Below, piece by piece: positions 7,887 to 25,090 of a stretch of 64,000 nucleotides of DNA (positions within the stretch are counted from its first letter, which is position 1; every line of letters begins with the position of its first letter). Origin of the DNA: Streptomyces sp. MST-110588 (GTDB taxonomy: Bacteria > Actinomycetota > Actinomycetes > Streptomycetales > Streptomycetaceae); NCBI RefSeq assembly GCF_022695595.1, contig NZ_CP074380.1, positions 1,240,001 to 1,304,000 on the forward strand, read 5' to 3'. The notes beneath the pieces were generated by a model. The model did no database searches. It worked only from the letters and a program-made list of their open reading frames with translations, and was not told where the DNA came from. The translations under genes and the position numbers were made by a program.

Positions 7887-10800
7887 TCACGCGTCGGCCG
7901 GCACCGGCGTACGGCCCGTCCGTGCCGACTCCGGCCCTGCCGGGTCCTGCCCTGTCGGCTCCGGCCCTGCCGATTCCGGCCCTGTCGGCTCCGTCTGGGC
8001 CAACAGCCCTGCGACGATGGCGGTCTGCCGGCCCAGCGTCCGGGCGAGCAGCATGTCACGTACCGGGACCTGGACCCCCGATGCCGTACGGATTCTGCGG
8101 GCGAGGTGGGTGATGAGCAGGGAGTCCCCGCCCAGCGCGAAGAAGTCGGCGTCCTCGGTGAGTTCGCCGTGGCCCAGGAGTTCCGCCCACAGGCCCGCCA
8201 CCAGGGACGGTGCGTCGGGCGGGGGTGCCGGGGCAGCCGTGGGAGCGTCCGCCGCGGGCCGGTCTTCGGCCCCGGCCGAAACGGCGGCGGCTTCGCGGGT
8301 GGCGGCGCCGGCCGTCCCGGCCGCCTCCGGCGCCAGCCACCGGGGCCCGGCGAAGGCGTAACCCGGCAGATGCGTCCGCCGCCCCGGGCCGCTGAGTGCC
8401 GTCGGCTCGACGGGCTGTCCGTGCGTCCACAACGCCCCCAGCGCGGTCAGCAGTTCACCGGCGGGGTGCGCGGTACGGGACGGGGACAGTGGTACGGCGG
8501 TCAGGCCGGCGGCGTCGGCCATCGCCGTCAGCGCCCGGCCCGGCCCGATCTCGACGGCCAGGGCGCCCGGGAAGTGCTCGGCGAGGGCCCGGGCGGCTTC
8601 GAGGAAGCGCACCGTGCCGCGGGCCTGCTCGACGAACATCTCCGTGGCCACGGGCGTGCCGGCCGGCACGATCCGGCCCGTGGTGTTCGCCGCGAACGGC
8701 AGTACGGGGCGGCTCGTGACCGTCCCGGCCAGGGCCGCGGCCAGAGCCGGCAGGGCGGGTTCGACGAGCGCCGAGTGGAAGGCCCGGTCGCCGCGCATCC
8801 GGCGGGTGTGGACCCGGTTGCCGACCCGCTCCCGGAACGCCTCGACGGCGTCGGCCGTCCCGGCCGCCACACAACTGTCCGGGGTGTTGACGGCGGCCAG
8901 TTCGAGGCCGGGGCCGAAGGCGGCCAGCAGCTCCCGGGCGTGGTCCTCCGCACAGCCCAGTACGAGCATGGCGCCGGGCGGGCAGTCCTGCATGGCGCGC
9001 CCCCGGGCCACGACGAACCGTGCCGCGTCGGGGAGGGCGAGGACCCCCGCGGCACAGGCGGCGGTGATCTCACCGAGGCTGTGCCCCGCCACGGCGGCGG
9101 GGGCGACACCCAGCGCGGACAGGGCACCGGCCGCCGCGTACTCCAGGGCGAACAGGGCAGGCTGGGCCAGTTCGGTCGCCGTCAGTTCCGCCTCGGGGAA
9201 GGCGGGGTCCAACAGCGCGGCACGCAGCCGTACGGCCATGGCGGGTCCGAAGGCACCGAGGCAGCTTTCCAGGGCGTCGGCGAAACCGGGCAGGGCCTGG
9301 GCGAAAGGCAGGCCCATGCCGGGGAACTGCGTGCCCTGGCCGGGGAAGAGGAAGAGGGCGGGCGCCGGTCCCGCGGCGGGCCGGCTCGCGCGTACCACGC
9401 CGGACCCGGTCGCGAGACGGTCGGCCACCTCGGCGGTGGTCCGCCCGCTGACGGCCAGACGTTCGGGCAGTTCGGCCCGCCCGGCGGCGAGGGTGAAGGC
9501 GACGTCGGCGAGCGGGGCCGGCCGCTGCGCCAGGTGGGCGCTCAGCCGGGCGGCGGCGCGCGTGAGGGCTTCGGGGCCGGCGGCGGACAGCAGGACGGTA
9601 CGGCCGACGGGCTCCCGGCCGTCGTACGCGGCGTCGTGCCCGCCGGCGTCCGTCCGGGCGCCGGGCCCGGTACCGGCCGGCGGCTGTTCGAGGACCACAT
9701 GCGCGTTGGTGCCGCCGATGCCGAAGGAGCTGACACCCGCCCGCCGGGGTCCGGGGCCGGTCCACGGCTGCTCGCGGGTGGGGACGTACAGCGGCGAACC
9801 GTCCGTCTCCAGCAGCGGGTTGCTGCGGGTGAAGGCGGCCACCGGCGGAATCACCCCGTCCCGCACCACCAGCAGCGTCTTGATCAGGGCCGCCAGTCCC
9901 GCGGCATTGTCCAGGTGGCCGACGTTGGCCTTGACCGCTCCCACCGCCACCTGTCCCGGCCGGGCGCCGGTACCGGCCAGCGCGGCCGAGGCCGCGGACC
10001 ATTCGATGGGGTCCCCGACCCGGGTTCCGGTGCCGTGCGTCTCCAGGTAGCCGATGCTCTCGCCGGTGACGTCCGCGGCCCGCAGCGCCGCCCGGATCAC
10101 GGCCTCCTGCCCGCCGACGGACGGGGCGTAGTAACCGGCCTTGGCCGCGCCGTCGTTGTTGACCGCGGTGCCCAGGATGACACCGTACGGCTCGGGGCCG
10201 TCGGCCAGGGCGTCCTCCAGGCGCCGCAGTACCACGCATGCCGCACCGGACCCGGCGACCACGCCGTCGGCGCGCTCGTCGAACGGGCGGCAGTGGCCCG
10301 AGGCGGAGTGCACACCGCCCGGCACGTGGAGGTGCCCCGCCTGGGGGAAGGCCATGCCCGCGGCGACGACGACCGCCTGGTCGCAGTCGCCGTTCAGCAG
10401 TGCCTGGACCGCGGTGTGGACGGCGACCAGGGAGGAGGAGCAGGCGGTCTGCACGGCCACGGCGGGCCCGGTCAGCCCGATCTTGTACGACACCAGGCCG
10501 GCCATGAAGTCCGGTTCGGCGCCGTGCAGCGCGTCTTCGAGGGTCAGCGGGTCCAGCCCGCCGTTGGCCAGCATGGCGCGCAGATAGCCGCTGCCGCTGG
10601 CCGAGGCGTACACACCGGTGACGGGTGCGGGGCCCAGCGGCGGGATTCCGGCGTCCTCCAGGGCGGACCAGGTGACCTCCAGCATCAGCCGGTGCTGCGG
10701 GTCCATCATCTCCGCGTCGCGGGGGCTGACCCGGAAGAGGGTGTTGTCGAACCGGTCGGCGTCCGCCAGGTGCCCGTGCACGGGCACGAAATCGGGGTCG

Positions 10801-10970
10801 TCCAGCAGGCTCGCGGCCACTCCCGCGTCGGCCAGCTCCCGCCGTTCGTACCGTCTGGTCAGCACGCGTCCGGCCTTGAGGGCCGACCACCACGCGCTGA
10901 GGTCGCCGGCGCCGGGGAACCGGGCGGCGACGCCGGTGACGGCGACGTCCAGAGATCGATCACGGGTCAT
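7887..10970 (-). CDS. type I polyketide synthase, single KS-AT-ACP module
   Basis: A 1027-residue synthase. The ketosynthase covers residues 8-430 with an intact triad: Cys177 in TACSSS, His312 in HGTGT and His352 in NVGH. The acyltransferase covers about 535-830, with Ser631 in GHSLGE and RAFHS at 730-733; the AFHS form predicts malonyl-CoA. The ACP covers about 920-990 with Ser950 in GGDS. There is no ketoreductase, dehydratase, methyltransferase or thioesterase, so it should extend one starter by an unreduced C2 unit. The last 35 residues are a Pro/Glu/Gly repeat that could be a linker or docking tail. It is divergent from the NRPS gene across a perfect operator palindrome, so the two are probably co-regulated, with the NRPS-bound acyl group as the likely KS substrate. 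Confidence 0.92.
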   Translation of the reverse strand: MTRDRSLDVAVTGVAARFPGAGDLSAWWSALKAGRVLTRRYERRELADAGVAASLLDDPDFVPVHGHLADADRFDNTLFRVSPRDAEMMDPQHRLMLEVTWSALEDAGIPPLGPAPVTGVYASASGSGYLRAMLANGGLDPLTLEDALHGAEPDFMAGLVSYKIGLTGPAVAVQTACSSSLVAVHTAVQALLNGDCDQAVVVAAGMAFPQAGHLHVPGGVHSASGHCRPFDERADGVVAGSGAACVVLRRLEDALADGPEPYGVILGTAVNNDGAAKAGYYAPSVGGQEAVIRAALRAADVTGESIGYLETHGTGTRVGDPIEWSAASAALAGTGARPGQVAVGAVKANVGHLDNAAGLAALIKTLLVVRDGVIPPVAAFTRSNPLLETDGSPLYVPTREQPWTGPGPRRAGVSSFGIGGTNAHVVLEQPPAGTGPGARTDAGGHDAAYDGREPVGRTVLLSAAGPEALTRAAARLSAHLAQRPAPLADVAFTLAAGRAELPERLAVSGRTTAEVADRLATGSGVVRASRPAAGPAPALFLFPGQGTQFPGMGLPFAQALPGFADALESCLGAFGPAMAVRLRAALLDPAFPEAELTATELAQPALFALEYAAAGALSALGVAPAAVAGHSLGEITAACAAGVLALPDAARFVVARGRAMQDCPPGAMLVLGCAEDHARELLAAFGPGLELAAVNTPDSCVAAGTADAVEAFRERVGNRVHTRRMRGDRAFHSALVEPALPALAAALAGTVTSRPVLPFAANTTGRIVPAGTPVATEMFVEQARGTVRFLEAARALAEHFPGALAVEIGPGRALTAMADAAGLTAVPLSPSRTAHPAGELLTALGALWTHGQPVEPTALSGPGRRTHLPGYAFAGPRWLAPEAAGTAGAATREAAAVSAGAEDRPAADAPTAAPAPPPDAPSLVAGLWAELLGHGELTEDADFFALGGDSLLITHLARRIRTASGVQVPVRDMLLARTLGRQTAIVAGLLAQTEPTGPESAGPEPTGQDPAGPESARTGRTPVPADA

Positions 10971-11100: not shown

Positions 11101-11129
11101 GTGGCAACCTGTTGCCACGGATTGGCAAT
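11101..11129. promoter_or_regulatory. divergent promoter operator, perfect palindrome
   Basis: GTGGCAACCTGTTGCCAC (11101-11118) is a perfect 8+2+8 inverted repeat, followed by an extra half site TTGGCAA at 11123-11129. It lies between the PKS and NRPS starts (10970 and 11167). The same GGCAAC-N2-GTTGCC core recurs at 20339-20352, so it is probably the binding site of the cluster regulator. Confidence 0.75.
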
Positions 11130-11166
11130 TACTTGTCTGTGATACCTCCCGGAGGGACGGCAAGCC

Positions 11167-14100
11167 GTGCGACCAGAACCGAGTTGGACCGCGCAAGGAC
11201 CGTGCACGCCGCTCGACGAAGGGCTGCACGAGACGGTCGCACGGACGGCACGGGCCCGCCCCGGTGCCCCCGCCCTCATAGCGGACCGTCAGGTGACGAC
11301 GTACGCCGAGCTGGACGCCACCGCCGACGCCTGGGCCGCTGACCTCGCCGCGCGCGGAGTGCGCCCCGGCGACTTCGTACCGGTCCTGCTGCCCAGGAGC
11401 ACCGAGCTGGTCACCGCGCTGCTGGCGGTGCTCAAGACCGGCGCCGCCTACGCCCTGTTGGACCCCGCCTGGCCCGCCCGCCGCCTCCACGAGGTGATCC
11501 AGGACCTCGCCCCGCCCCTGCTGGTCACCGGCGCGCCCGCCGCACCTTTCCCGGCATCCGGGGCACAGGGTTCCACGGGTCCGCGACCGCCGGTGTGGAC
11601 TCCCCCGGCCAAGACGGCCACCGCGCCCCCTCACTTCCGGCCCGTCGGCGTCAGCGGCACCGATCCCGCCTGTGTCTTCTTCACCTCCGGCACCACCGGC
11701 CGGCCCAAGGGCGTGGTGAGTCCCCACCGGGCGACAGCACGCCTGTTCCCGCCGGACGGCCCGGACGGCTTCGTGCCGTTCGGCGCCGGCACCGTCATGC
11801 CGCTGGCCGCGCCCGTCCCCTGGGACGCCTTCTCGCTGGAACTGTGGGCCGTGCTGCTCCACGGCGGCACCTCACTGATCGTCCAGGAGCCCTACCTGAC
11901 CCCCCAGTTCCTGCGCGAGGGGGTGCGCCGGTACGGGGCGAACACGGCCTGGCTCACCAGCAGCCTGTTCAACATGACCGTGGACGAGGACGTGGCCGCC
12001 TTCGACGGCCTGCGGCACGTCGTCATCGGCGGCGAACGGGTCTCACCCGCCCACGCCGGCCGCTTTCTGCGCCGGCACCCCCGAACCGCGCTCATCAACG
12101 GCTACGGTCCGGTCGAGAGCACCGTCTTCGCCACCACCCACCGCATCACCCCCGCCGACTGCGCCCACCCCGACGGCATCCCGCTGGGCCGGCCGGTCGC
12201 CCGCACCCAGGTGTACGTCCTGGACGGCGACCGCCCGTGCGCGGTGGACGAGCCCGGGGAGATCTGCGTCGCCGGCGACGGGCTGGCCCTGCGCTATCTG
12301 GGGGACGCGGCCCTCACGGACGCGAAGTTCGTCACCGTACGCGTGGACGGCAAGGACCGGCGCGTCTACCGGACCGGCGACCTGGGCCATTGGGGGGCGG
12401 ACGGTCTGCTGCGTTTCCGGGGCCGCGCCGACCGGCAGGTCAAGATCCGCGGGCACCGGATCGAGCCCGCCGAGGTCGAGCGCCAGGTGGTGCGGCTGCT
12501 GCCCGCCGTACGGGACTGCCGGGTGCTGGCCCGTCGTGACGCGGAAGGAACCGCCCAGGAGCTGGTCGCCTTCTGCGTACCGGTCCGGCGGCAGGACCCG
12601 CTGCGCGACGCGCTGCCCGCGCTGTGCGACGCCCTGGTCCCCTACCAGCGTCCCGCCGCACTGGTCAGCGTGGACGCCTTCCCCGTCACCGCGCAGGGCA
12701 AGCTGGACGAGCGTGCCCTGCTCGCCCTGGCACCGCCCGCCGCGCCCGGCCCGCGTCCCGCCGGGACACCGCCGGTCCAAGGCGCCCGGGAAGAGCTGGG
12801 CGGCCTGGACCGGACCACCCGGGCGGTGGCGGAGACCTTCGCCGCGGTGCTCGGCCGTACCGCTGTCCCGCTCGACGCCCCCTTCGACCGGCTCGGCGGC
12901 GGCTCGCTCGCGGCGGGCCGGGTCTGTGCCCGGCTCGCCGCCCGGCTCGGCCGGCCCGTACCGGTCTCCCGGCTGTACGCGCACCCGACGGTCACCGCAC
13001 TCGCCGGCTGGCTGCGGACCACCGGCCGCCCGGCCGCCCGCCGCCCCGCCCCCCTCGCCGACGTACCGCTGACGTCCATGCAACTGGTGTACCTCACCCG
13101 GCATCTGCTCGACCCCGCCGACCCGGCCTCGCACTGCCTGCTTACCTGGGTCATCGAGGGCCGGCCGGACCGGGCGGCGCTCCAGGCGGCGATCAGCGCG
13201 GTCCACCGCCGGCACGAACCGCTGCGCGCCGCCTACGTCCCCGACCCGCGCCCGGTCGCCTTCACCGTGGACATCGAGCCTCCCCCGTTGGAAGTCCTGG
13301 GCGCCCGCCCGACGGTGGAGGCGGCCCTCCAGGCGCTCCGGGCCGAACTGGCCGGCCCCCTGGAGCCGACCGCGGGCGAGGTGTGGCGTACGGCGCTGGT
13401 CCCCGTCGGCACCTCGGACGTCACCGTCCTGGGCTGCGTGGTGCACCACATCGCCTTCGACGGCTGGTCGGAGTCCGTTCTAGCCGAGGACCTCGCGGCG
13501 GCCTACAACTCCGCCTCGGGCGGGCCGCGCACCACACCGCCGCCGCCTCCCACACTGGCGCAGGCGCATCTGATCCGTACCGAGCACCTGGAACAGGCCG
13601 GCCTCGACGGTCATCGCGAGCACCTGCGCGGCGAGCTCACCGGCGTACCCGCCCTGCGCTGGCCGGCGGGGCCGGACCGGCCGGCGCGGCAGCCGGCCGG
13701 CGCCACCGACCGGGTCGAGGTGATCCTCACGCCGGCCGCCGTGGCCGCGGCCGACGCGCTGGCCGCCGAAGCGGGGGTGACCCGGTTCACCGTCCTGCTG
13801 ACCCACTGGGCGCGCAGCCTGGCCGAGGCCACCGGACAACGGGATTTCGCGCTGGGCGTGCCGGTGGCGCAGCGCTTCGGCACCGGCCTGGAGCGGGCCG
13901 TGGGCTGCCACATCACCATGGTCTGCGTCCGGTTGCGCGGCCCGGCCCTGGAAGGCGGCGTCCGCGGCGTACGGGAGACCGGCCGCCTGGTCGCCCGGGC
14001 CTTCGCCGCCCAGGACGTGCCCTTCGGCGAGGTCCTGGACCTGGCGGACGCGCCGCGCACCCACCGGCCGCCGCTCTTCCAGGCGCTCTTCGCCCTCCAG

Positions 14101-14331
14101 GACAACGCGCCGCCACGGCTGGCTCTCACCGGGCTGCGGACCACCTTCCTGCGCCGGCCCTATCTCGGTCTGCCGCTGGAGCTGCACGCCGAGCTGTGGC
14201 CCGAAGAGGGCGGCGGGCTGCGGCTGGAGGTCGCCTTCAGGACACAGGCCGTCTCCCGTACCACCGCCGAGGAGTGCGCCAAACGCTTCGCGGACCATCT
14301 GCACACCACCCTGTCAGGAGTCCCCTCATGA
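11167..14331 (+). CDS. NRPS with A-PCP-C domain order
   Basis: A 1054-residue synthetase. The adenylation domain (about 20-520) has FFTSGTTGRPKGVV (A3), NGYGPVES (A5), YRTGDLG (A7), GRADRQVKIRGHRIEPAEVE (A8) and the A10 lysine in AQGKLDE. Reading the pocket by eye against PheA gives roughly D-A-L-L-V-G-G-V-F-K, which suggests a hydrophobic amino acid (valine-like) but is only a guess. The carrier domain has Ser580 in an unusual LGGGS. The condensation domain (about 630-1050) has HHIAFDGWS, with His761 as the catalytic histidine. Starting with A and ending with C means it loads a starter amino acid and acylates an amine delivered by another protein. There is no thioesterase. GTG start at 11167, with GGAGG eleven bases upstream. 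Its stop overlaps the P450 start. Confidence 0.92.
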   Translation: MRPEPSWTAQGPCTPLDEGLHETVARTARARPGAPALIADRQVTTYAELDATADAWAADLAARGVRPGDFVPVLLPRSTELVTALLAVLKTGAAYALLDPAWPARRLHEVIQDLAPPLLVTGAPAAPFPASGAQGSTGPRPPVWTPPAKTATAPPHFRPVGVSGTDPACVFFTSGTTGRPKGVVSPHRATARLFPPDGPDGFVPFGAGTVMPLAAPVPWDAFSLELWAVLLHGGTSLIVQEPYLTPQFLREGVRRYGANTAWLTSSLFNMTVDEDVAAFDGLRHVVIGGERVSPAHAGRFLRRHPRTALINGYGPVESTVFATTHRITPADCAHPDGIPLGRPVARTQVYVLDGDRPCAVDEPGEICVAGDGLALRYLGDAALTDAKFVTVRVDGKDRRVYRTGDLGHWGADGLLRFRGRADRQVKIRGHRIEPAEVERQVVRLLPAVRDCRVLARRDAEGTAQELVAFCVPVRRQDPLRDALPALCDALVPYQRPAALVSVDAFPVTAQGKLDERALLALAPPAAPGPRPAGTPPVQGAREELGGLDRTTRAVAETFAAVLGRTAVPLDAPFDRLGGGSLAAGRVCARLAARLGRPVPVSRLYAHPTVTALAGWLRTTGRPAARRPAPLADVPLTSMQLVYLTRHLLDPADPASHCLLTWVIEGRPDRAALQAAISAVHRRHEPLRAAYVPDPRPVAFTVDIEPPPLEVLGARPTVEAALQALRAELAGPLEPTAGEVWRTALVPVGTSDVTVLGCVVHHIAFDGWSESVLAEDLAAAYNSASGGPRTTPPPPPTLAQAHLIRTEHLEQAGLDGHREHLRGELTGVPALRWPAGPDRPARQPAGATDRVEVILTPAAVAAADALAAEAGVTRFTVLLTHWARSLAEATGQRDFALGVPVAQRFGTGLERAVGCHITMVCVRLRGPALEGGVRGVRETGRLVARAFAAQDVPFGEVLDLADAPRTHRPPLFQALFALQDNAPPRLALTGLRTTFLRRPYLGLPLELHAELWPEEGGGLRLEVAFRTQAVSRTTAEECAKRFADHLHTTLSGVPS

Positions 14332-15830: not shown

Positions 15831-16760
15831 ATGGCCCATTCCCTCACGGCCGACGTCAAGGTCACCCGGCTGACCGGCACCATCGGTGCCGAGATCGGCG
15901 GTGTGGACGCCGGCGGCCCGCTCGGCGACGAGACCGTCGCCCGCATCCGGCAGGCCCTGAACGAGCACAAGGTGGTGTTCCTGCGCGGCCAGGACCTCGA
16001 CTATCAGCGTCAGGTCGCCTTCGCCCGGAACTTCGGTGACCTCACGCTCGGACACCCCATCTACGACGCGCCGTCCGACCAGCCGCACCTACGCGAGATG
16101 GACTCGCGCCACGGCACCCGCGCGAACCACTGGCACACCGACCTGACGTTCATCCAACGGCCGCCGGCCTACGCGTTCCTGCACGGCAAGGTCATCCCCC
16201 CGGTGGGCGGCGACACCATCTGGGCGAACACCGTGACCGCCTACCAGTCCCTGCCCGAGGAGCTGCGGGACCTGGCCGACCGGCTGCGCATCGTGCACAG
16301 CAACGACTGCGACTTCACCGACGACACCTATGCGCACCGCGCGGAGAACGGCGACCAGGACGACTACATCTCCACCCCCTACGAGACGGCGCACCCCGCC
16401 GTCCGCGTACATCCGCAGACCGGCGAACGGGCGCTGATGCTGGGCGGCTTCGCCCGCCGGGTGGTGGGTTACGGACCGCAGGCCTCCCGCGACCTGATCC
16501 GGGTGCTCCAGGAGTACGTGACCCGGCCGGAGCAGACCGTGCGCTGGAAGTGGCGGGCCGGCGACCTGGTGATCTGGGACAACCAGGCGACCCAGCACTA
16601 CGCGGTCTACGACTACGGGAGCGAGTACCGCCGCGGCGAGCGGGTCACGGTCGCCGGCCCGGTCCCGGTCGGCGTCGACGGCCGCCCGAGCACGGTGCTG
16701 CGCGGCGACACCTCGTCGTACAGCACCGGGTCCGCACCGGACAGCGGCGAGGCCGCCTGA
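15831..16760 (+). CDS. TauD/TfdA-family Fe(II)/2-oxoglutarate dioxygenase
   Basis: A 309-residue dioxygenase of usual family length. The iron facial triad is visible as WHTDLTF (His102, Asp104) and QHYAVYDY (His256). An arginine in the following RRGERVTVAG segment should bind 2-oxoglutarate. Start ATG 15831, with GGAAAGG about ten bases upstream. Such enzymes in NRPS clusters usually hydroxylate or desaturate an amino acid, free or carrier-bound. The combination of a TauD enzyme with small NRPS and PKS proteins recalls detoxin/rimosamide clusters as I remember them, but the absence of a ketoreductase here argues against simple equivalence. A dedicated operator precedes the gene. Confidence 0.9.
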   Translation: MAHSLTADVKVTRLTGTIGAEIGGVDAGGPLGDETVARIRQALNEHKVVFLRGQDLDYQRQVAFARNFGDLTLGHPIYDAPSDQPHLREMDSRHGTRANHWHTDLTFIQRPPAYAFLHGKVIPPVGGDTIWANTVTAYQSLPEELRDLADRLRIVHSNDCDFTDDTYAHRAENGDQDDYISTPYETAHPAVRVHPQTGERALMLGGFARRVVGYGPQASRDLIRVLQEYVTRPEQTVRWKWRAGDLVIWDNQATQHYAVYDYGSEYRRGERVTVAGPVPVGVDGRPSTVLRGDTSSYSTGSAPDSGEAA

Positions 16761-16935
16761 GCGGGCCCGGGCCCGGACCGGGTGCGGGCCCATGGGCGCC
16801 GCACCGCAGACGGCCGGTGCCGGCCGGAGGGCATCCCCCGTGGCCCCCGCCGGCACCGGCTACCCGCCGGGCACGCCGAGCGCCACGGCGTTGCCCGGAC
16901 CATCCGCCCAGAAGTGGAAAGGTGTGGATATACCC

Positions 16936-18934
16936 GTGCAGACCGCTCCCTACGGCACATGGGTCTCCCCGGTCACCGCGGCCGACGTGGCCGCCGGCCA
17001 GGCGCTCGTCGAATGGGTGGATTTCGTCGGTGACGAGGTGTGGTGGACCGAGGCCCGGCCCTGGGAGGCCGGACGTGCTGCCCTGGTCCGCCGCCGCTCG
17101 GACGGAACGGTCCAGGACGCCCTCGGCGACGGCTGGGACGTACGCTCCAAGGTCATCGAATACGGCGGCCGGCCGTGGCTGCCGCTCGGCGACGGCCCGT
17201 CCGCGGGCGTCGTCTTCACCCACTGGGACGACCAGCGGGTGTACCGGGCGGTGCCGGGCGGTGCCGGGCGGCCGGCCACGGCCGCTCAGCCCCGGGCCCG
17301 CACGTCCGGGCGGCCTGCGGTACTGCGACTTCGCCCGGGTGGGTGAGGAAGTCTGGTGCGTACGCGAGGAGATGACCGGACCGGCTCCGACGGACCTGCG
17401 CCGGGACCTGGTCGCGCTGCCCCTGGACGGCACCGCGGCCCAGGACCCGGCAGCGGTACGGGTGCTCGGCGCCGGCCATCACTTTCTGACCGGCCCCAAG
17501 CCGTCGCCGGACGGCAGCCGCGTGGCGTGGATCGGCTGGGACCATCCGGCGATGCCGTGGGACGGCACGGACGTGATGTGCGCGCCGGTCGGCCCCGGCG
17601 GGACGCTGGGGCCCGCCCGGCGGGTCGCGGGCGGCCCCGGCATCTCCGTCGGCCAGATCGAGTGGGCCCCCGACAGGCCGGACACCCTGTACGCACTCGC
17701 GGACACCAACGGCTGGTGGAACCTTTACGAGTTCGGCCCGGACGGGGCCGGCCGTGCCCTGTGCCCGCGCGCCGAGGAGTTCGGCGACGCACTGTGGCGC
17801 ATCGGGAGCCGCTGGTTCCTCCCGGCCGGCGACGGACGGCTGTTCGTCGTGCACGGCACGGGCGAGCAGCGGCTGGCCGTCCTGGAGGCGGACGGCTCGC
17901 TGCGGGACATCGGCGCCCCGTACACCGAGTACGCCGCGCCGGCCACCGACGGGAAGCGGATCGCCGCGACCGCCGCAGGCCCGCGGCACGGCCGCCGCGT
18001 GGTCCTTCTCGACCCCGGGGAAGCACGCCCCCAGGTGCTGCGCGCCGCGGAACTCAAGCACGCGGCGTACCTGCCGCGGGGGCACCGCCGGACCTTCCGG
18101 GGCGACGGCGGCGAGGAGGTGCACGCGTACGTGTATCCGCCGTACAACCCCGGTTTCACCGCGCCCGAGGGGGAACTGCCACCCTTTCTGGTTCATGTGC
18201 ACGGCGGGCCCACCAGCCGTACCCGGCTGATCGCCAATCAGGAGTTCGCCTACTTCACCAGCCGGGGCATCGGGGTCGTCGACGTCCAGCACGGCGGCTC
18301 CACCGGATTCGGCCGGCGCTACCGGGAACGGCTGCGGGGGAACTGGGGCGTGGTCGACGTACAGGACTGTGCCACGGTCGTCCGCGGCCTGATCGCCGGC
18401 CGTGAGGCCGACCCGGACCGCATCGGCATCCGCGGAGGGAGCGCGGGCGGCTGGACCGCGGCGGTGTCCCTGACCGCGGAGCCGGACCTGTACCGCGTCG
18501 CCGGCATCTACTTCCCGCTCCTGGACCCCGAGGAGTGGCGGGTGCGCGGCACTCACGACTTAGAGTCGCACTACCTTCACAGCCTCATCGGGCCGTGGCC
18601 GCAGGAGAGGGCCCGGTACGCCGCCCGCTCGCCGCTGCGCCGGGCACACCGCATCCGGGCGTCCTTCGTCCTCATGCAGGGCCTTGAAGACCCGGTCTGC
18701 CCGCCCGAGCAGGCGGTCAGGCTGCTGGACCGGCTGCGCGGCGGGGGCGTGCCGCACGCGTATCTGGCCTTCGAGAACGAGCAGCACGGCTTCCGCAGGG
18801 CCCAGAGCGTCATCCGCTGTCTGCACGCCGAACTCTCCGTGTACGCGCAGTCCTTCGGGTTCCAGGTCCCAGGCATTCCGCGGACCGTCCTGAGCACGCC
18901 GCCGCGCCCGCCGCGGCACCACACGACGCGATAG
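16936..18934 (+). CDS. S9-family (prolyl oligopeptidase-like) peptidase, frameshifted
   Basis: About 665 residues over two frames. From GTG 16936 the first frame encodes a beta-propeller opening (APYGTWVSPVTAADVAAG) and runs to about 17262. Homology-like continuity then passes to the +1 frame (GLRYCDFARVGEEVW and onward) to the stop at 18934. The switch lies in a repeated GGTGCCGGGC stretch. The C-terminal hydrolase domain keeps Ser in GGSAGGWT, Asp in EDPVCPP and His in EQHGF, so the enzyme would be active if the frame is corrected. A TTA codon at 18560 suggests bldA dependence. In this context the peptidase could trim or activate a peptide product, or give self-resistance. The frameshift is either a sequencing error or a recent inactivation. 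Confidence 0.8.
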
Positions 18935-19102: not shown

Positions 19103-20278
19103 TCAGCCGGCGTGCCCGGCCCGTGCCTGGTCCGCCGCCAGGTTGAGCACGGCGTCGGCGAGGAACTTGGCCGCCCAGTTGGGGAAGGCCAGCGGTTCGA
19201 ATCCGCCGGTGAGCGGCCAGGAGCCGGGCAGTGCGCCGACGGCCGCCGGTTCCAGCGGCTGCCGTACCTGGAGTTCCGCCAGCCGGTACACGACCCGTAC
19301 GCACCGGGCCCGCAGTGCGGGATCCGCGCGGCGGACCGCCACGTCGAGCCAGACCGTCACCATCTGCGCGTCCCCGGTCAGACACGCGTAGTCGGCCCGC
19401 GGGGTGAATCCCGCGCCGATCTCCCCCGGCAGAAGGGGGTACAGGGGAGTGCCGAGCCGGGCCAGGCGCAGGGCGCAGGTGGTGGCCGCGTCCGCGCACC
19501 GCTCCCCCAGTTCGCCACCGACCAGGTCCGCGCCGCGCAGCAGTCCGCGCAGGGCGTACCCGATGGTGTGGGTCCACGGCTTCCGGCCCGCGTCGAACGC
19601 CATCCGCTCGATCCAGCCGTCCGGCCGCACCTGCCCCAGCATCCAGCGCAGCGAACGCTCGGCGCAGGCCAGCAGGGCCGTGTCACCGGTGGCCCGCCAG
19701 ACTTCCGCGACCGCCCATGTCACGCGCGCGGAGTAGGTGTTGGGGTAGCCGAAGTGCGACAGCCAGGCGCCGGAGGGCTGCTGGGCGGCGACGAGCCAGT
19801 GTGCCGCGCGTACGGCGGCGTCCAGGGTGGACTGCTCACGCGTCGCCCGCCACAGCTCCACCAGGCCCAGCACGATCTGTCCGACGTCGAACACCACAGG
19901 AGGGCCGTCGGTGCCCGTGCCCCCGGGGAACGCGCCGTCGGACGACTGGAGCCCTTGGAGCCAGTCGCCCACCTCGTGTGCCCGGTCGGCCAGTTGCGGC
20001 TGGTGCAGGGCCTGCGCGGCCCGCAGGAGCGTGGGTATCAGGTAGCCGCTGGTCTCCGGGTACGGAGGCTGCCAGCCATGATTGAGGTCGTAACCGGCCG
20101 AGATCCCCTTGCGGCCGGTGGCGTCGTGGGCGCTCTCGATCCACCGCATCGCATCTGCGAGCGTCCGCAGGTGCGGTGCCTTCACCGTCACGGTTCCCAT
20201 GGGTACGGCTTTCATGGGTACGGCCTTCATGGGTACGGCCTTCATGGGTACGGCCTTCGCCTCGCTCCCGTCCGTCAT
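19103..20278 (-). CDS. alpha/alpha-toroid protein (sugar hydrolase, lyase or epimerase-like)
   Basis: A 391-residue protein made of repeated helical pairs with glycine-rich turns such as LQSSDGAFPGG, QQPSGAWLSHFGYPN and VRPDGWIERMAFD. These are characteristic of alpha/alpha toroids (terpenoid-cyclase-like repeat and unsaturated-glucuronyl-hydrolase-like families). I cannot fix the family or its catalytic residues. No signal peptide is visible. The N-terminus after ATG 20278 carries four near-identical pentapeptides (KAVPM), each containing a possible internal start, so the true start could be near 20200. The gene is convergent with the S9 peptidase and has the cluster operator 60 bp upstream. 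A role on a sugar-containing intermediate would fit the neighbouring deacetylases and alditol oxidase. Confidence 0.7.
   Translation of the reverse strand: MTDGSEAKAVPMKAVPMKAVPMKAVPMGTVTVKAPHLRTLADAMRWIESAHDATGRKGISAGYDLNHGWQPPYPETSGYLIPTLLRAAQALHQPQLADRAHEVGDWLQGLQSSDGAFPGGTGTDGPPVVFDVGQIVLGLVELWRATREQSTLDAAVRAAHWLVAAQQPSGAWLSHFGYPNTYSARVTWAVAEVWRATGDTALLACAERSLRWMLGQVRPDGWIERMAFDAGRKPWTHTIGYALRGLLRGADLVGGELGERCADAATTCALRLARLGTPLYPLLPGEIGAGFTPRADYACLTGDAQMVTVWLDVAVRRADPALRARCVRVVYRLAELQVRQPLEPAAVGALPGSWPLTGGFEPLAFPNWAAKFLADAVLNLAADQARAGHAG
20198..20257 (-). repeat. four 15-bp tandem units encoding KAVPM
   Basis: Four consecutive copies of CATGGGTACGGCCTT (plus strand) lie within the N-terminal codons of the toroid protein. 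Because the unit is 15 bp, copy-number change keeps the frame. Each unit contains an in-frame ATG. Confidence 0.9.
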
Positions 20279-20338
20279 GACGCACCACCCCGGCGGGCGC
20301 CACGTGCGGACGCCCTCCCCCAGCCGGACCACTTGTCA

Positions 20339-20352
20339 GGCAACACGTTGCC
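20339..20352. promoter_or_regulatory. cluster operator palindrome GGCAAC-N2-GTTGCC
   Basis: GGCAACACGTTGCC is a perfect 6+2+6 inverted repeat 60 bp upstream of the toroid-protein start. It has the same core as the PKS/NRPS operator. The following stretch (20353-20684) shows no credible gene. Confidence 0.7.
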
Positions 20353-20684: not shown

Positions 20685-20855
20685 TCACGTATACGGCCAG
20701 TCGATCTCGGGGCCGTCTTTGGCTGTGACCGTAGGATTTCGGGACTGTGGCGCGTCCGCCGCGGCGGGGACGGCCGGATCTTGTATGAGTAATAGGACCG
20801 TCAGGGCAAAAGCACCGAGGGTGCTGGCGTATGCGACAACGGTACGCTCGCGCAT
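20685..20855 (-). CDS. small exported peptide, candidate signalling propeptide
   Basis: A 56-residue peptide starting at ATG 20855, with a strong AGGAG six bases upstream. The N-terminus is MRERTVVAYA followed by a hydrophobic helix (residues 12-24, TLGAFALTVLLLI), a classical signal-peptide layout. A31-A32-A33 could be a signal-peptidase site, leaving a short polar C-terminal peptide ending DGPEIDWPYT. Codon 22 is TTA, so translation should depend on bldA tRNA. The gene is divergent from an HTH/TPR regulator across a shared regulatory region carrying the cluster motif. No cysteines or maturation enzymes suggest a RiPP. The best explanation is a secreted propeptide sensed by the neighbouring regulator; a small membrane protein is the alternative. 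Confidence 0.7.
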   Translation of the reverse strand: MRERTVVAYASTLGAFALTVLLLIQDPAVPAAADAPQSRNPTVTAKDGPEIDWPYT

Positions 20856-20943
20856 GGCTTCTCCTGTCGAAGGCTGTACAGAGACGAAGGCACCGTCGGT
20901 GCCCCCGTTAAACGATTCCAAAGTAACGAGCCAACACGATTTT

Positions 20944-21056
20944 TGACAAGGGTTACCTCGAGCATTGACAACGCCTTGCCAAACTTGAGTCACATTCTTA
21001 CTTCCAAGCCATCGGAGACAACGATCAACTGCGGCGATCCAGGCAACAGGCTTGCC
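20944..21056. promoter_or_regulatory. divergent control region of peptide and regulator genes
   Basis: This AT-richer region holds TTGACAACGCCTTGCCAA (20965-20982), in which TTGACAA and TTGCCAA are 11 bp apart, and GGCAA-CAGGC-TTGCC (21042-21056), an inverted repeat. On the minus strand TTGTCA (20944-20949) followed 16 bp later by GTTACT could be the -35/-10 of the peptide gene. The sites resemble the other cluster operators and suggest autoregulation. Confidence 0.55.
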
Positions 21057-21219
21057 AACCGCCGTGAAGGGGCAGTACATTGAAGGCGCGGAAGCTGTCA
21101 GCCCATTTTGCCTGCGCCACCATCCCGCAGACAGGAGTCGTGGATCTCCCCCCAGGCCAGGCGAAAGCGCACCACGGCTGACAGGGGAAGCATCCGAGCA
21201 CGCGATTTCCGGGATTCCT

Positions 21220-22455
21220 ATGATTGAACAGCCGTTCTTTGGGCGACGTCTCAAAGAGTTGAGGCGGGAGCGTGGTCTCTCGCAGTCTGCTTTGGCGGGA
21301 AAGCAGATCTCCACCGGGTATTTGTCGCGTCTTGAGTCGGGCGCCCGACAGCCCACCGACCGGGTCGTCTCGTATCTCGCCGAGCAGCTCCAACTGGACC
21401 GTTCGGCGTTCGAGGTACCGCCGAACGGCAGTTCACTGGCCCAGGCGCTGAGCATCGCGACGTCCGCGGACTGCGACGACGCGACCGAGAACCTCATCTC
21501 CGTACTCGCCAGGGCCCAGCACGAGGACCCGCTCCTGCGGTGGCAGGCGCTCTGGGTGATCGCCCTCTACCGGCAGCGGCGCGGTGAACTGGCCGAGGAA
21601 CAGCAGTGCTGGGAGAAGCTCGTCCAGATCGCCGACGAACTCGCCCTGCCCGAGCTGCGGTGCCGGGCGTGGACGCAGTACGCCCGGTGCCTGCGCACGG
21701 CGGGCGAGGTCGTACGCGCCGCCGACTTCGCGACCCGCGCCTACGAACTGGCCCGGGACAGCAGTCTCTCCCTGGGCGACACCGGCAACGCGCTGCTCAC
21801 CCTGGTCTCCGCCGAGGCCGAGGCCGGCCGGCTCCCGGACGCCAGGGCGCACGTCGACACCCTGGTCTCCCTCGTGGAGGACAGGTCCGACGCCCTGCGG
21901 GCCGAGGCCCTGTGGTCGGCCGCCACCGTACGCCTGCGCCAGGGCGATCACGAGGCCGCCCAGCAGTTCCTTGAGCATGCCATCGCGGGGCTGGACAGCC
22001 GCGTCGACCTGCTCCTGTGGGTACGGCTCCGGCTCGCCGGCGCTTCCTTCTCCCTACAGGTGACCCCGGCCCGGGTGAGCCGGGCCCGCGTCTACCTGGA
22101 AGAGGCCCGGACCGCACTGTCGCTCGTCGGCACCCCGGTGCTGCGTCAGGAACTGCTCACCCTCCAGGCGCACCTCGCCTTCCAGGAAGGCAGGTACGAG
22201 GACGCCCGTGCCGCGCACGACGAACTCAGCGGCGAGGAACTGCGTCTGACGTACCGGGACCGCATCAGGCTGAGCATCCTGGACAGTCGGCTCCTCATCC
22301 TGGAGGGACACCAGGAAGAGGGGATCGACCGGCTCAAGGAGCTGGGGGAGGAAGCCCGCCAGGCCCTGAACATCGACCTGGTGGCGGAGATCTGGCGGGT
22401 GCTCGCCGAGACCCTGGCCACCGCGCGGCTTCCAGGCGCCGCGCCCCGCGGCTGA
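21220..22455 (+). CDS. HTH (XRE) transcriptional regulator with TPR-like sensor domain
   Basis: A 411-residue regulator. Residues 1-65 form a Cro/CI-type helix-turn-helix (FGRRLKELRRERGLSQSALA, then ISTGYLSRLESGARQP). Residues 80-400 are all helical with repeated A/L-rich helix pairs, as expected for TPR repeats. The frame is open upstream, but ATG 21220 (MIEQPFF) begins exactly at the HTH domain. The layout matches RRNPP receptors such as PlcR, Rgg and PrgX: a DNA-binding head plus a TPR peptide-binding body, next to a small secreted peptide. It probably binds the TTGCC/GGCAA motif found before most operons of the cluster. A constitutive pathway regulator with a small-molecule ligand is the alternative. 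Confidence 0.88.
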   Translation: MIEQPFFGRRLKELRRERGLSQSALAGKQISTGYLSRLESGARQPTDRVVSYLAEQLQLDRSAFEVPPNGSSLAQALSIATSADCDDATENLISVLARAQHEDPLLRWQALWVIALYRQRRGELAEEQQCWEKLVQIADELALPELRCRAWTQYARCLRTAGEVVRAADFATRAYELARDSSLSLGDTGNALLTLVSAEAEAGRLPDARAHVDTLVSLVEDRSDALRAEALWSAATVRLRQGDHEAAQQFLEHAIAGLDSRVDLLLWVRLRLAGASFSLQVTPARVSRARVYLEEARTALSLVGTPVLRQELLTLQAHLAFQEGRYEDARAAHDELSGEELRLTYRDRIRLSILDSRLLILEGHQEEGIDRLKELGEEARQALNIDLVAEIWRVLAETLATARLPGAAPRG

Positions 22456-22688: not shown

Positions 22689-23650
22689 TTGTCCGCTGGT
22701 GACTGGTTGGGAAGCGAACTGCGTCCCGAAGATCTGCACATCGATGAAGCGCTCGTACGCCGGCTGATCGCCGCGCAGTTCCCGCAGTGGGCGGACTTAC
22801 CCGTCAAGTCGGTCGATGCCCAGGGCATGGACAACGCCACGTACCGGCTGGGCGAGAAGATGTCCGTACGGCTTCCCCGTTACCCCCGGTGGGAGGGGCA
22901 GGTGGAGCGGGAACAGCGGTGGGTGCCCCGGCTCGCCCCGCACCTTCCCCTGCCTGTCTCCGTCCCGCTGGCCAAGGGCGCTCCCGGAGAGGGCTACCCC
23001 TTCGCCTGGTCCGTCTACCGGTGGCTCGACGGCGAGACGGCGGTCCCCGAAGACCTGGCCGACCTCGGGGGACGGCGACCGCCCTCGCGGAGTTCCTGAC
23101 CGCCCTGCAGGGCATCGATGCCGCCGGCGGTCCGCCGCCCGAGTGGAGCAACGGGTTCCGCGGCGTGCCCTTGACCGACGAGCGTGACTCGCCAGTCGTG
23201 GCGGCACGTCTGCGCGCCAGGATCCAGGCCCTGGAAGGTCTGGTCGACACCGAGGCGGTGACCGCGGTGTGGGAATCGGGCCTTGCCGCCCCCGCTTGGG
23301 ACGGGCCGCCCGTGTGGATCCACGGCGACCCGGCCCCCGGCAACCTGCTGGCCGTCGACGGCAGGCTCAGCGCCGTCATCGACTTCGGCACCCTGGCCGT
23401 GGGCGACCCCGCGTGTGACCTGATCGCCGCCTGGACGGTCCTGGACGCCGACTCCCGCAAGGTCTTCCGTGCGGCTTTCCCGGTCGACGACGCGACCTGG
23501 GCCCGTGGCCGCGTATGGGGCCTGTCCGGCGTGCTGCCCTCCCCGGACGAACTCACCGGTGACGACCCCGAGCGGGTCGCCTCGGCCCGCCGCCGCCTCG
23601 ACGAACTCGTGGCCGACCACCGCGAGGAGAACTCCACACCGGCCGGCTGA
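22689..23650 (+). CDS. APH/choline-kinase-family phosphotransferase, frameshifted
   Basis: About 320 residues over two frames. From TTG 22689 (AGGAGA at 22678-22683) the protein reads normally to DLADLGG near 23067, then continues in the -1 frame as TATALAEFLTALQ to the stop at 23650. One extra G in the GGGGG run would restore the gene. The catalytic HGDPAPGN and the metal-binding DFG in VIDFGTLAVGDPACDL are intact. The family phosphorylates aminoglycosides, macrolides or related hydroxylated metabolites, so the likely role is self-resistance or a biosynthetic sugar kinase. Codon at 22797 is TTA (bldA). The frameshift is either a homopolymer sequencing error or a true loss of function. Confidence 0.8.
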
Positions 23651-23957: not shown

Positions 23958-24004
23958 TTGCCAGCTTATGTCAAAAGGTTGCCAATCCTGTGCCAGCTCA
24001 GGCA
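23958..24004. promoter_or_regulatory. cluster operator region before the PhyH-type gene
   Basis: TTGCCA occurs at 23958 and 23979, followed by the inverted repeat TGCC-AGCTCA-GGCA (23991-24004). Its spacer nearly equals that of the operator before the TauD gene (AACTCA). It lies about 245 bp upstream of the dioxygenase start, the same distance as for the TauD operator. Confidence 0.65.
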
Positions 24005-24247
24005 GACTGACTCGTCGCCGACTCGACAGCGAAAAGCACGGTCCGGTCGGCCGCCCGCATCATGGCCGGAAACCGCGGCACCGGCTCAGCGCACTCACCT
24101 CTCCCCAGGTCCCGTTCGGCCTCCCGCGACCACCGGTTCGTGGCACCCGCGGACGCGGTTTTGCTCCTCAGGGCCGGCGCCGCCGTGACATCCCGGCTCG
24201 GCGTACGAGACACGCAATTGCCGAGAACGCAGAACGGAGTCCCCCTC

Positions 24248-25090
24248 ATGACGACATCAGCATCCGCCCTCCGCGAGGACACGACGCGCCTGGACGGCAG
24301 CCAGAGCGACCGGTTCGCCCGGCTCGGCTATCTGGTCCTGCCCGGCATCCTTCCCGACGACCTGGTCTCCCGCCTCAAACCCGAGGTCGACAGGTGGGTC
24401 GACGACGGCCTGCGGGCGCGATCGATCGCCTCGTGCACCGATCCGGACACCTACGGCACGCCCCCCGTACTGGAACTCGAACTGGCCGCGCACGGCGAGC
24501 TGGTCGGCCACCCGCCCCTGATGAACCTGCTCGGCCGGCTGCTGGGCCCGCGCTTCGTCTTCCACCACCTGCACAGCGACCGGCAGGAGCCCTCCCGCCC
24601 CGGCAAGCCCTGGCACCACGACTACGAACAGAACCCGCAGACCGACCGCGCGCACAGCATGATCCACACGCTGCACTACCTGGACGGCCTGGACGAGAGC
24701 ACGGCCGCCCTCGCCGTCCTCCCCGGCTCGCACCGGACGGTCGCCGAGAAGACCGCGCGAGCCCACCTCGGCACGGAGGAGATACCGGGCGAACTCGTCA
24801 TCGACCGTCTGCCGCGCGGGTCGACGGTCGTTCTGCACTCGGCCCTGTTCCACACCCGCCGCCCCGTCACGGGTGCCGACCGGCCCCGGTACATGATCGA
24901 CGCGTCGTACTGCCAGGCGGGGGTCCGCTGGCCGCCGGTCAAGCCGTACTGGAGGTACATGCTGCGGCGGGGCCGGGAGCTCGGCCTGGACCACGGCACC
25001 TGGCCCGAGCTCTTCGCGGAGCGGCATTTCAGCGAGTACAGCAAGGAATACAGCCGGCCTGCCAACAGGCCCGCCGCACAGTCCGCCTGA
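24248..25090 (+). CDS. PhyH-family Fe(II)/2-oxoglutarate dioxygenase
   Basis: A 280-residue protein of the phytanoyl-CoA dioxygenase family. WHHDYE supplies the His123-x-Asp125 pair and HSALFHTRRP the distal His202 region; the arginine in DRPRYMID should hold 2-oxoglutarate. GILPDDLVSRL near the N-terminus is typical of the family. The ATG at 24248 opens the recognisable domain. The closest preceding purine stretch is GAACGGAG, about eight bases upstream. It is the first gene of a rightward unit with the deacetylase 89 bp downstream. Hydroxylation of a small hydrophilic metabolite is the likely role. The cluster thus encodes two non-heme dioxygenases of different families. Confidence 0.88.
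   Translation: MTTSASALREDTTRLDGSQSDRFARLGYLVLPGILPDDLVSRLKPEVDRWVDDGLRARSIASCTDPDTYGTPPVLELELAAHGELVGHPPLMNLLGRLLGPRFVFHHLHSDRQEPSRPGKPWHHDYEQNPQTDRAHSMIHTLHYLDGLDESTAALAVLPGSHRTVAEKTARAHLGTEEIPGELVIDRLPRGSTVVLHSALFHTRRPVTGADRPRYMIDASYCQAGVRWPPVKPYWRYMLRRGRELGLDHGTWPELFAERHFSEYSKEYSRPANRPAAQSA

Follow-up and report, generated by a model that had tools for sequence, protein, structure and literature searches.

A short gene in a 64,000-nucleotide stretch of the Streptomyces sp. MST-110588 genome (NZ_CP074380.1, positions 1,240,001 to 1,304,000; the whole stretch is called the window below) encodes a candidate peptide pheromone, and the divergent gene beside it encodes the candidate receptor. 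We put the probability at roughly three in four (about 0.77) that the two are an RRNPP-like propeptide and receptor, forming a peptide pheromone system that controls the nearby cluster of polyketide synthase (PKS) and nonribosomal peptide synthetase (NRPS) genes. An RRNPP-like quorum-sensing layout had been proposed in an initial annotation of this DNA and is supported by a peptide core that recurs and is linked to the receptor, by the placement of operators and by the predicted receptor fold. The genome of the strain is one contig of 7.9 Mb.

A small candidate propeptide gene and the neighbouring gene of its putative receptor

The annotated arrangement, a 56-codon gene divergent from the gene for a 411-residue regulator, agrees with the coordinates. 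The two start codons are 364 bp apart. The regulator combines a helix-turn-helix (HTH) domain with tetratricopeptide repeats (TPR). The features of the pair are as follows.

20685..20855, minus strand: propeptide gene, 56 codons, product ending EIDWPYT (sequence; recurrence of the core in relatives)
20861..20865, minus strand: its ribosome-binding site AGGAG, 5 nt upstream of the ATG start (sequence)
20757..20855, minus strand: signal-sequence-like N-terminus, residues 1-33, with AAA end (by eye; hydropathy)
20694..20705, minus strand: codons of the core I51-D52-W53-P54, the word that the peptide family conserves (comparison of loci; alignment)
21220..22455, plus strand: receptor, XRE-type HTH and TPR superhelix, 411 aa (domain matches; structure model)
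21238..21405, plus strand: receptor HTH domain, residues 7-62 (HTH_31, E 4.4e-11)
22045..22047, plus strand: codon of Ser276 in helix 264-280, the column scoring best against core residue 2 (pair comparison)

The 56-residue propeptide (MRERTVVAYASTLGAFALTVLLLIQDPAVPAAADAPQSRNPTVTAKDGPEIDWPYT) has a basic start followed by a hydrophobic stretch (best 12-residue hydropathy, 2.75) and, by eye, AAA at residues 31-33, in line with the signal sequence and possible AAA cleavage site that had been suggested. The C-terminus DGPEIDWPYT, also singled out at that stage, fared less evenly: IDWP is kept in relatives and the rest is not conserved. A protein search with the window peptide as sole query returned no match, so the propeptide family emerged through receptor loci and then through a 20-row profile.

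Relatives of the receptor at E <= 1e-60 were found in 63 of 392 genomes of the genus (72 matches), the strain's own genome holds one, and 70 receptor genes were taken from these as a first set. A second set of 58 loci came from a family-wide search that matched 70 of 394 genomes and 9 of 17 genera. This second set is partly not new: L182 is a Kitasatospora plasmid already met as L166, and many receptors are kin of those in the first set.

The open reading frames (ORFs) beside first-set receptors have little in common except a C-terminal [I/V/L][D/E/G]WP. Under a strict rule (20-110 codons, at most 700 bp upstream of the receptor, core no more than 12 residues away from the C-terminus), the true motif order gave 40 ORFs in the first set, 30 of which stop exactly at WP, whereas the 23 permuted orders gave 9 altogether. 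The true order gave 14 ORFs in the remaining 1.00 Mb of the first-set stretches. The second set contained 27 loci with a core ORF, against 6 for all permuted motifs combined, and core ORFs occurred in at least six of the nine matched genera (g1, g143, g147, g148, g150, g153). When Ser was allowed, the ORF could reach 140 codons and the core could be as far as 25 residues from the C-terminus (the wider rule), a core ORF was present within 700 bp upstream of 41/70 first-set and 31/58 second-set receptors. The initial annotation had named absence of the small ORF beside orthologous regulators as the outcome that would count against the pair; at these receptors it has been kept. The pairing of a small ORF with the receptor is well supported.

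Trp and Pro are invariant in the 20 aligned peptides. The profile made from them matched 49 database proteins including the seed rows, none informatively named; 48 of the 49 carry two to five WP words, a share that is biased because the profile was built from multi-copy peptides. OG553_RS01135, annotated as hypothetical on plasmid NZ_CP108163.1, is a three-copy IDWP propeptide. A later start-free scan turned up TEWP at L185, IEWP at L190 and TDWP at L201, all outside the counts given here. Across 295 genomes, an IDWP-stop pattern (which accepts TGG codons too) showed no excess over its reversed control. Among 30 loci drawn from that pattern, 14 have a true stop, including known receptor neighbours and L138, whose propeptide lies 29 kb from the receptor on the same contig. 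The pattern is absent from the strain's own genome, where the window peptide ends IDWPYT. One distant locus came from a collection scan with the receptor as query, and a class-wide scan matched 11 of 394 genomes, one of them outside the genus. That genome has two receptors and no C-terminal core ORF beside them; 322 bp upstream there is only a divergent ORF, in which LEWP occurs internally.

Under the wider rule, a hydrophobic N-terminus was found in 26/41 first-set and 26/31 second-set nearby core ORFs, and two or more cores in 12/41 and 7/31. The other 15/41 and 5/31, some short and polar, have no hydrophobic leader, which would suit a private intracellular ligand that acts as the receptor's co-regulator in the cytoplasm, its leader vestigial or lost. 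We consider this unlikely given the leadered ORFs just counted and a group of loci (L042, L043, L044, L087, L167) that pair a polar leaderless DWP ORF with a leadered multi-copy one, both within about 3 kb of the receptor; tandem copies also fit release by a protease. The hydrophobic segment could instead belong to a small membrane peptide that tethers the receptor as an anti-regulator. We give that reading almost no credence, since leaderless members drop the segment and keep the core, and it leaves the tandem cores without an obvious function.

Tandem cores and leader-like N-termini also resemble multi-core precursors of ribosomally synthesized and post-translationally modified peptides (RiPPs), in which the repeated core would be an enzyme substrate and the receptor would merely regulate production. 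Annotations at some loci include ATP-grasp, P450 or PqqD-type genes in the vicinity. Across the flanks retrieved for the 70 first-set stretches, there is no recurring family of modification enzymes. Apart from the receptor, the commonest neighbour family there is BLAST-linked to the NRPS of the window (34/70 stretches; two members Pfam-checked) and the next is found in 15/70, counts that rest on simple gene prediction in flanks of unequal length. Core type is, moreover, associated with receptor residue 276, as described below, and a RiPP precursor seems very improbable to us.

The propeptide gene is divergent from the receptor gene in the window's clade. In a 14-row clade (peptide found in 11) and a 6-row group (peptide found in 5), both genes share one strand, with the propeptide gene upstream. 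IDWP is found to either side of the deepest split of the midpoint-rooted receptor tree, and core types cluster on this tree (27 changes versus 44.7 with shuffled labels). Some relatives' ORFs are leaderless and some are multi-copy. Individual loci show the range: five IEWP cores at L225, beside a receptor of 35% identity; six IGWP cores on the Kitasatospora plasmid L182; and an ISWP variant at L127 (three copies) and L214. The 36 plasmid records with a receptor relative comprise 35 from Streptomyces and 1 from Kitasatospora; six of these records were inspected.

Putative operator palindromes and the predicted regulon

A GGCAA-N4/5-TTGCC palindrome was spotted by eye in the aligned intergenic regions of the closest relatives. 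The window holds three exact copies, against a Markov expectation of 0.02 per window, which bears out the suggestion that the pair sits beside copies of a cluster operator. Sites with one mismatch number 7, against 3.2 expected; the three listed here are weaker than the exact sites. The operators (located by pattern scan and given without strand) and the genes next to them are as follows.

7887..10970, minus strand: PKS gene (KS-AT-ACP), predicted target (domain matches)
11103..11116: exact operator, in the gap separating the PKS gene from the divergent NRPS gene
11124..11137: operator with one mismatch, forming a tandem with the 11103 site
11167..14331, plus strand: NRPS gene (A-PCP-C), predicted target (domain matches)
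19103-20332, minus strand: GH127-like gene (E 1.3e-7)
20339..20352: exact operator a short way upstream of the GH127-like gene, counted from its earliest possible start
20967..20980: one-mismatch operator GACAACGCCTTGCC
21042..21056: exact operator GGCAACAGGCTTGCC between the propeptide and receptor genes
21052-21081, plus strand: promoter-like site for the receptor gene, its first hexamer overlapping the 21042 operator
23970..23983: weak one-mismatch operator upstream of a PhyH-type gene (24062-25090)

The promoter search found no promoter-like site for the peptide gene. The predicted regulon, as read from these sites, consists of the PKS-NRPS genes and the propeptide/receptor pair itself.

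The operator evidence lies in clustering, because the whole genome contains six exact copies, three of them in the window, compared with 13 for the reversed control pattern. The only exact operators outside the window are at G000:C1 1466161, 1634382 and 6144554. The first precedes the HTH part of a different XRE gene by about 170 bp, and the tail of that gene resembles a cupin on visual inspection. In the first set, the region from -600 to +50 of receptors held 41 exact sites in 46.8 kb, whereas the other 1036 kb held 47; this count covers 72 rows, including two duplicates. The second set gave 27 exact operators in 37.7 kb near receptors versus 12 in 496 kb elsewhere. Counted by receptor, an exact operator is present at 34/70 and 24/58. 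For the co-directional group, the upstream kilobases contained an exact operator in 1/20 and one with at most one mismatch in 8/20, with 7/170 for background tiles. Further exact operators, often paired, lie 1.3-3 kb downstream of the receptor start at L079, L080, L084, L091, L093, L095 and L097, where they perhaps mark promoters of neighbouring cluster genes.

Predicted receptor fold and the association of residue 276 with the peptide core

The N-terminal HTH and TPR-like body expected of the regulator were recovered as domain matches, the latter to TPR_12 (E 1.8e-8). The receptor thereby shares with RRNPP proteins an N-terminal HTH and a C-terminal TPR domain. Its structure model (predicted local distance difference test score, 91.5) is a TPR superhelix that resembles PlcR, NprR, Rap and AimR, a likeness that is not specific to the family, and its top Foldseek match is PlcR with PapR7 and DNA. 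Two further RRNPP traits are an adjacent short propeptide gene with an export-signal-like N-terminus, judged by hydropathy in the window and in relatives, and a conserved word near the propeptide C-terminus. For the proposed binding of the peptide in the TPR groove, the observations are conserved receptor residues and an association of residue 276 that is not significant in kinship-corrected contrasts. As to a possible oligopeptide permease for re-import, the strain's own genome has SBP_bac_5 genes.

Co-variation between the C-terminal residues and the TPR pocket had been suggested as a check on the pair. Core labels for this comparison and for the tree were set by hand for 52 pairs; those of L082 and L096 rest on internal-core ORFs, the ORF behind the L107 label has a weak ribosome-binding site, and L044 and L087 hold both IGWP and IDWP ORFs, of which the nearer was labelled. 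Receptor column 276 had the top score against core residue 2, at 0.41. The runner-up reached 0.25, and columns 272, 275 and 318 ranked after 276. A rule was set before the second set was fetched, with Ser at 276 predicting IDWP, Ala IEWP, Arg IGWP and Asp or Glu [VL][DE]WP. It held in 30/35 further pairs (S 16/20, A 5/6, R 7/7, E 2/2), or 29/34 without the previously seen L182; always predicting Asp at core residue 2 would have been right in 17/35. The misses were L195, L203, L207, L214 and L224, the last with an ORF that looks like chance, and L226 is covered by no rule. The association is seen in these pairs and was not significant in kinship-corrected tests. Because much of the pattern follows lineage, the tracking of core residue 2 by residue 276 is only suggestive.

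Several results weigh against the pheromone reading. APPBP2, MalT and LGN score as high as or higher than the RRNPP proteins against the receptor model, so the fold is not RRNPP-specific, and non-RRNPP folds head a second-look structure list. Pfam holds a model named RNPP_C, and the receptor's Pfam and NCBIfam matches at E <= 1 include no curated RRNPP model; for this reason we call the system RRNPP-like rather than a member of the family. No nearby core ORF was found at 29/70 and 27/58 receptors under the wider rule. Of the kinship-corrected independent contrasts for column 276, 3-4 were in favour, 0 were opposed and 5-8.5 showed no change, which is not significant; ten other columns outscored 276 in the kinship-corrected tests, and co-variation beyond kinship was not established. 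The lead of non-RRNPP folds and the earlier sighting of L182 lowered our rating slightly.

Proposed mechanism and relation to known systems

In the mechanism that we favor, the propeptide is probably exported via its signal-like N-terminus and would be trimmed to a short IDWP peptide, perhaps ending at Pro as in many relatives. An oligopeptide permease would then re-import the peptide, which would bind within the concave TPR groove of the receptor and alter the action of its HTH at GGCAA-N4/5-TTGCC operators. With operators preceding the receptor, peptide and PKS-NRPS genes, both autoregulation and cluster control could follow. It is likely that the peptide acts as an exported signal; whether it activates or represses the cluster is a guess, with the balance slightly towards activation. 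The product of 16550-18934, a gene near the pair, belongs to the S9 prolyl oligopeptidase family and might cleave IDWP-YT on the C-terminal side of Pro. We rejected it as a conserved partner in processing, since relatives occur in only 3 other stretches.

A broader proposal, which we hold to be somewhat better than an even bet, is an xDWP code in Streptomyces and sister genera. Single- or multi-copy propeptides would supply the pherotypes IDWP, IEWP, IGWP, ISWP and V/L-D/E-WP to HTH-TPR receptors, the region of residue 276 would set specificity, and the peptides would serve as cluster-specific pheromones for NRPS/PKS genes on chromosomes and linear plasmids.

Neighbouring genes vary among the loci. 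A PapA-like gene is common to nine stretches, which belong to the IEWP clade and its relatives, and a sigma-factor gene is shared by nine; one representative of each was Pfam-checked. At 22689-23650 of the window, an APH-type phosphotransferase match is split over two overlapping ORFs in different frames; a relative is annotated as one gene in NZ_CP108163.1.

Among known systems, PlcR-PapR of the Bacillus cereus group is the closest in structure. PlcR is an HTH and TPR receptor with a short propeptide gene. It differs in phylum and in length (PlcR entries have 280-284 aa, versus 411 aa here), and the present system has an xDWP core, tandem-copy precursors in some relatives and NRPS-type neighbours. 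A search of PDB sequences with the receptor gave four matches, none extending beyond the HTH; of named RRNPP proteins they include ComR alone, through its HTH. ComR-ComS and Rgg-SHP of Streptococcus are Firmicutes systems, with peptide words and operators other than the xDWP and GGCAA types. NprR-NprX, Rap-Phr and AimR-AimP receptors show 8-14% identity to ours; Rap has no HTH, and no phage record matched our receptor at E <= 1e-10. The gamma-butyrolactone systems use an enzyme-made small molecule and a TetR-type receptor, in contrast to a gene-encoded peptide and an HTH-TPR receptor here. Common to them and the proposed system is signalling between cells that acts on antibiotic clusters of Streptomyces (PMC13220807).

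A link of propeptide-receptor pairs to biosynthetic clusters is not new in itself, because RRNPP_Detector, which looks for adjacent pairs, predicted 196 clusters under such control (PMC10075063). The passages of that paper on its candidates set them in Firmicutes and mobile elements and name Actinomycetota for small-molecule signals only (PMC10075063). A Streptococcus mutans system is described as controlling a RaS-RiPP cluster (PMC8092268). Streptomyces signalling is described, in the relevant part of one account, in terms of small molecules such as butyrolactones (PMC13220807), and the section of another that reports a search for signalling-peptide genes in one Streptomyces genome gives no strong candidate (PMC11019849). 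Searches of the open-access PubMed Central literature, a scope outside which most subscription papers and bioRxiv preprints fall, yielded no report of such a system in Streptomyces.

Because the pairing recurs in many relatives, their clusters may be under the control of short gene-encoded peptides. If so, intracellular peptide signalling would extend to another phylum, and the natural pherotypes and tandem-copy precursors would make specificity directly testable. A gene-encoded signal wired to PKS/NRPS clusters would also offer a cheap handle on silent clusters, which could be reached by adding or expressing a peptide of four to seven residues.
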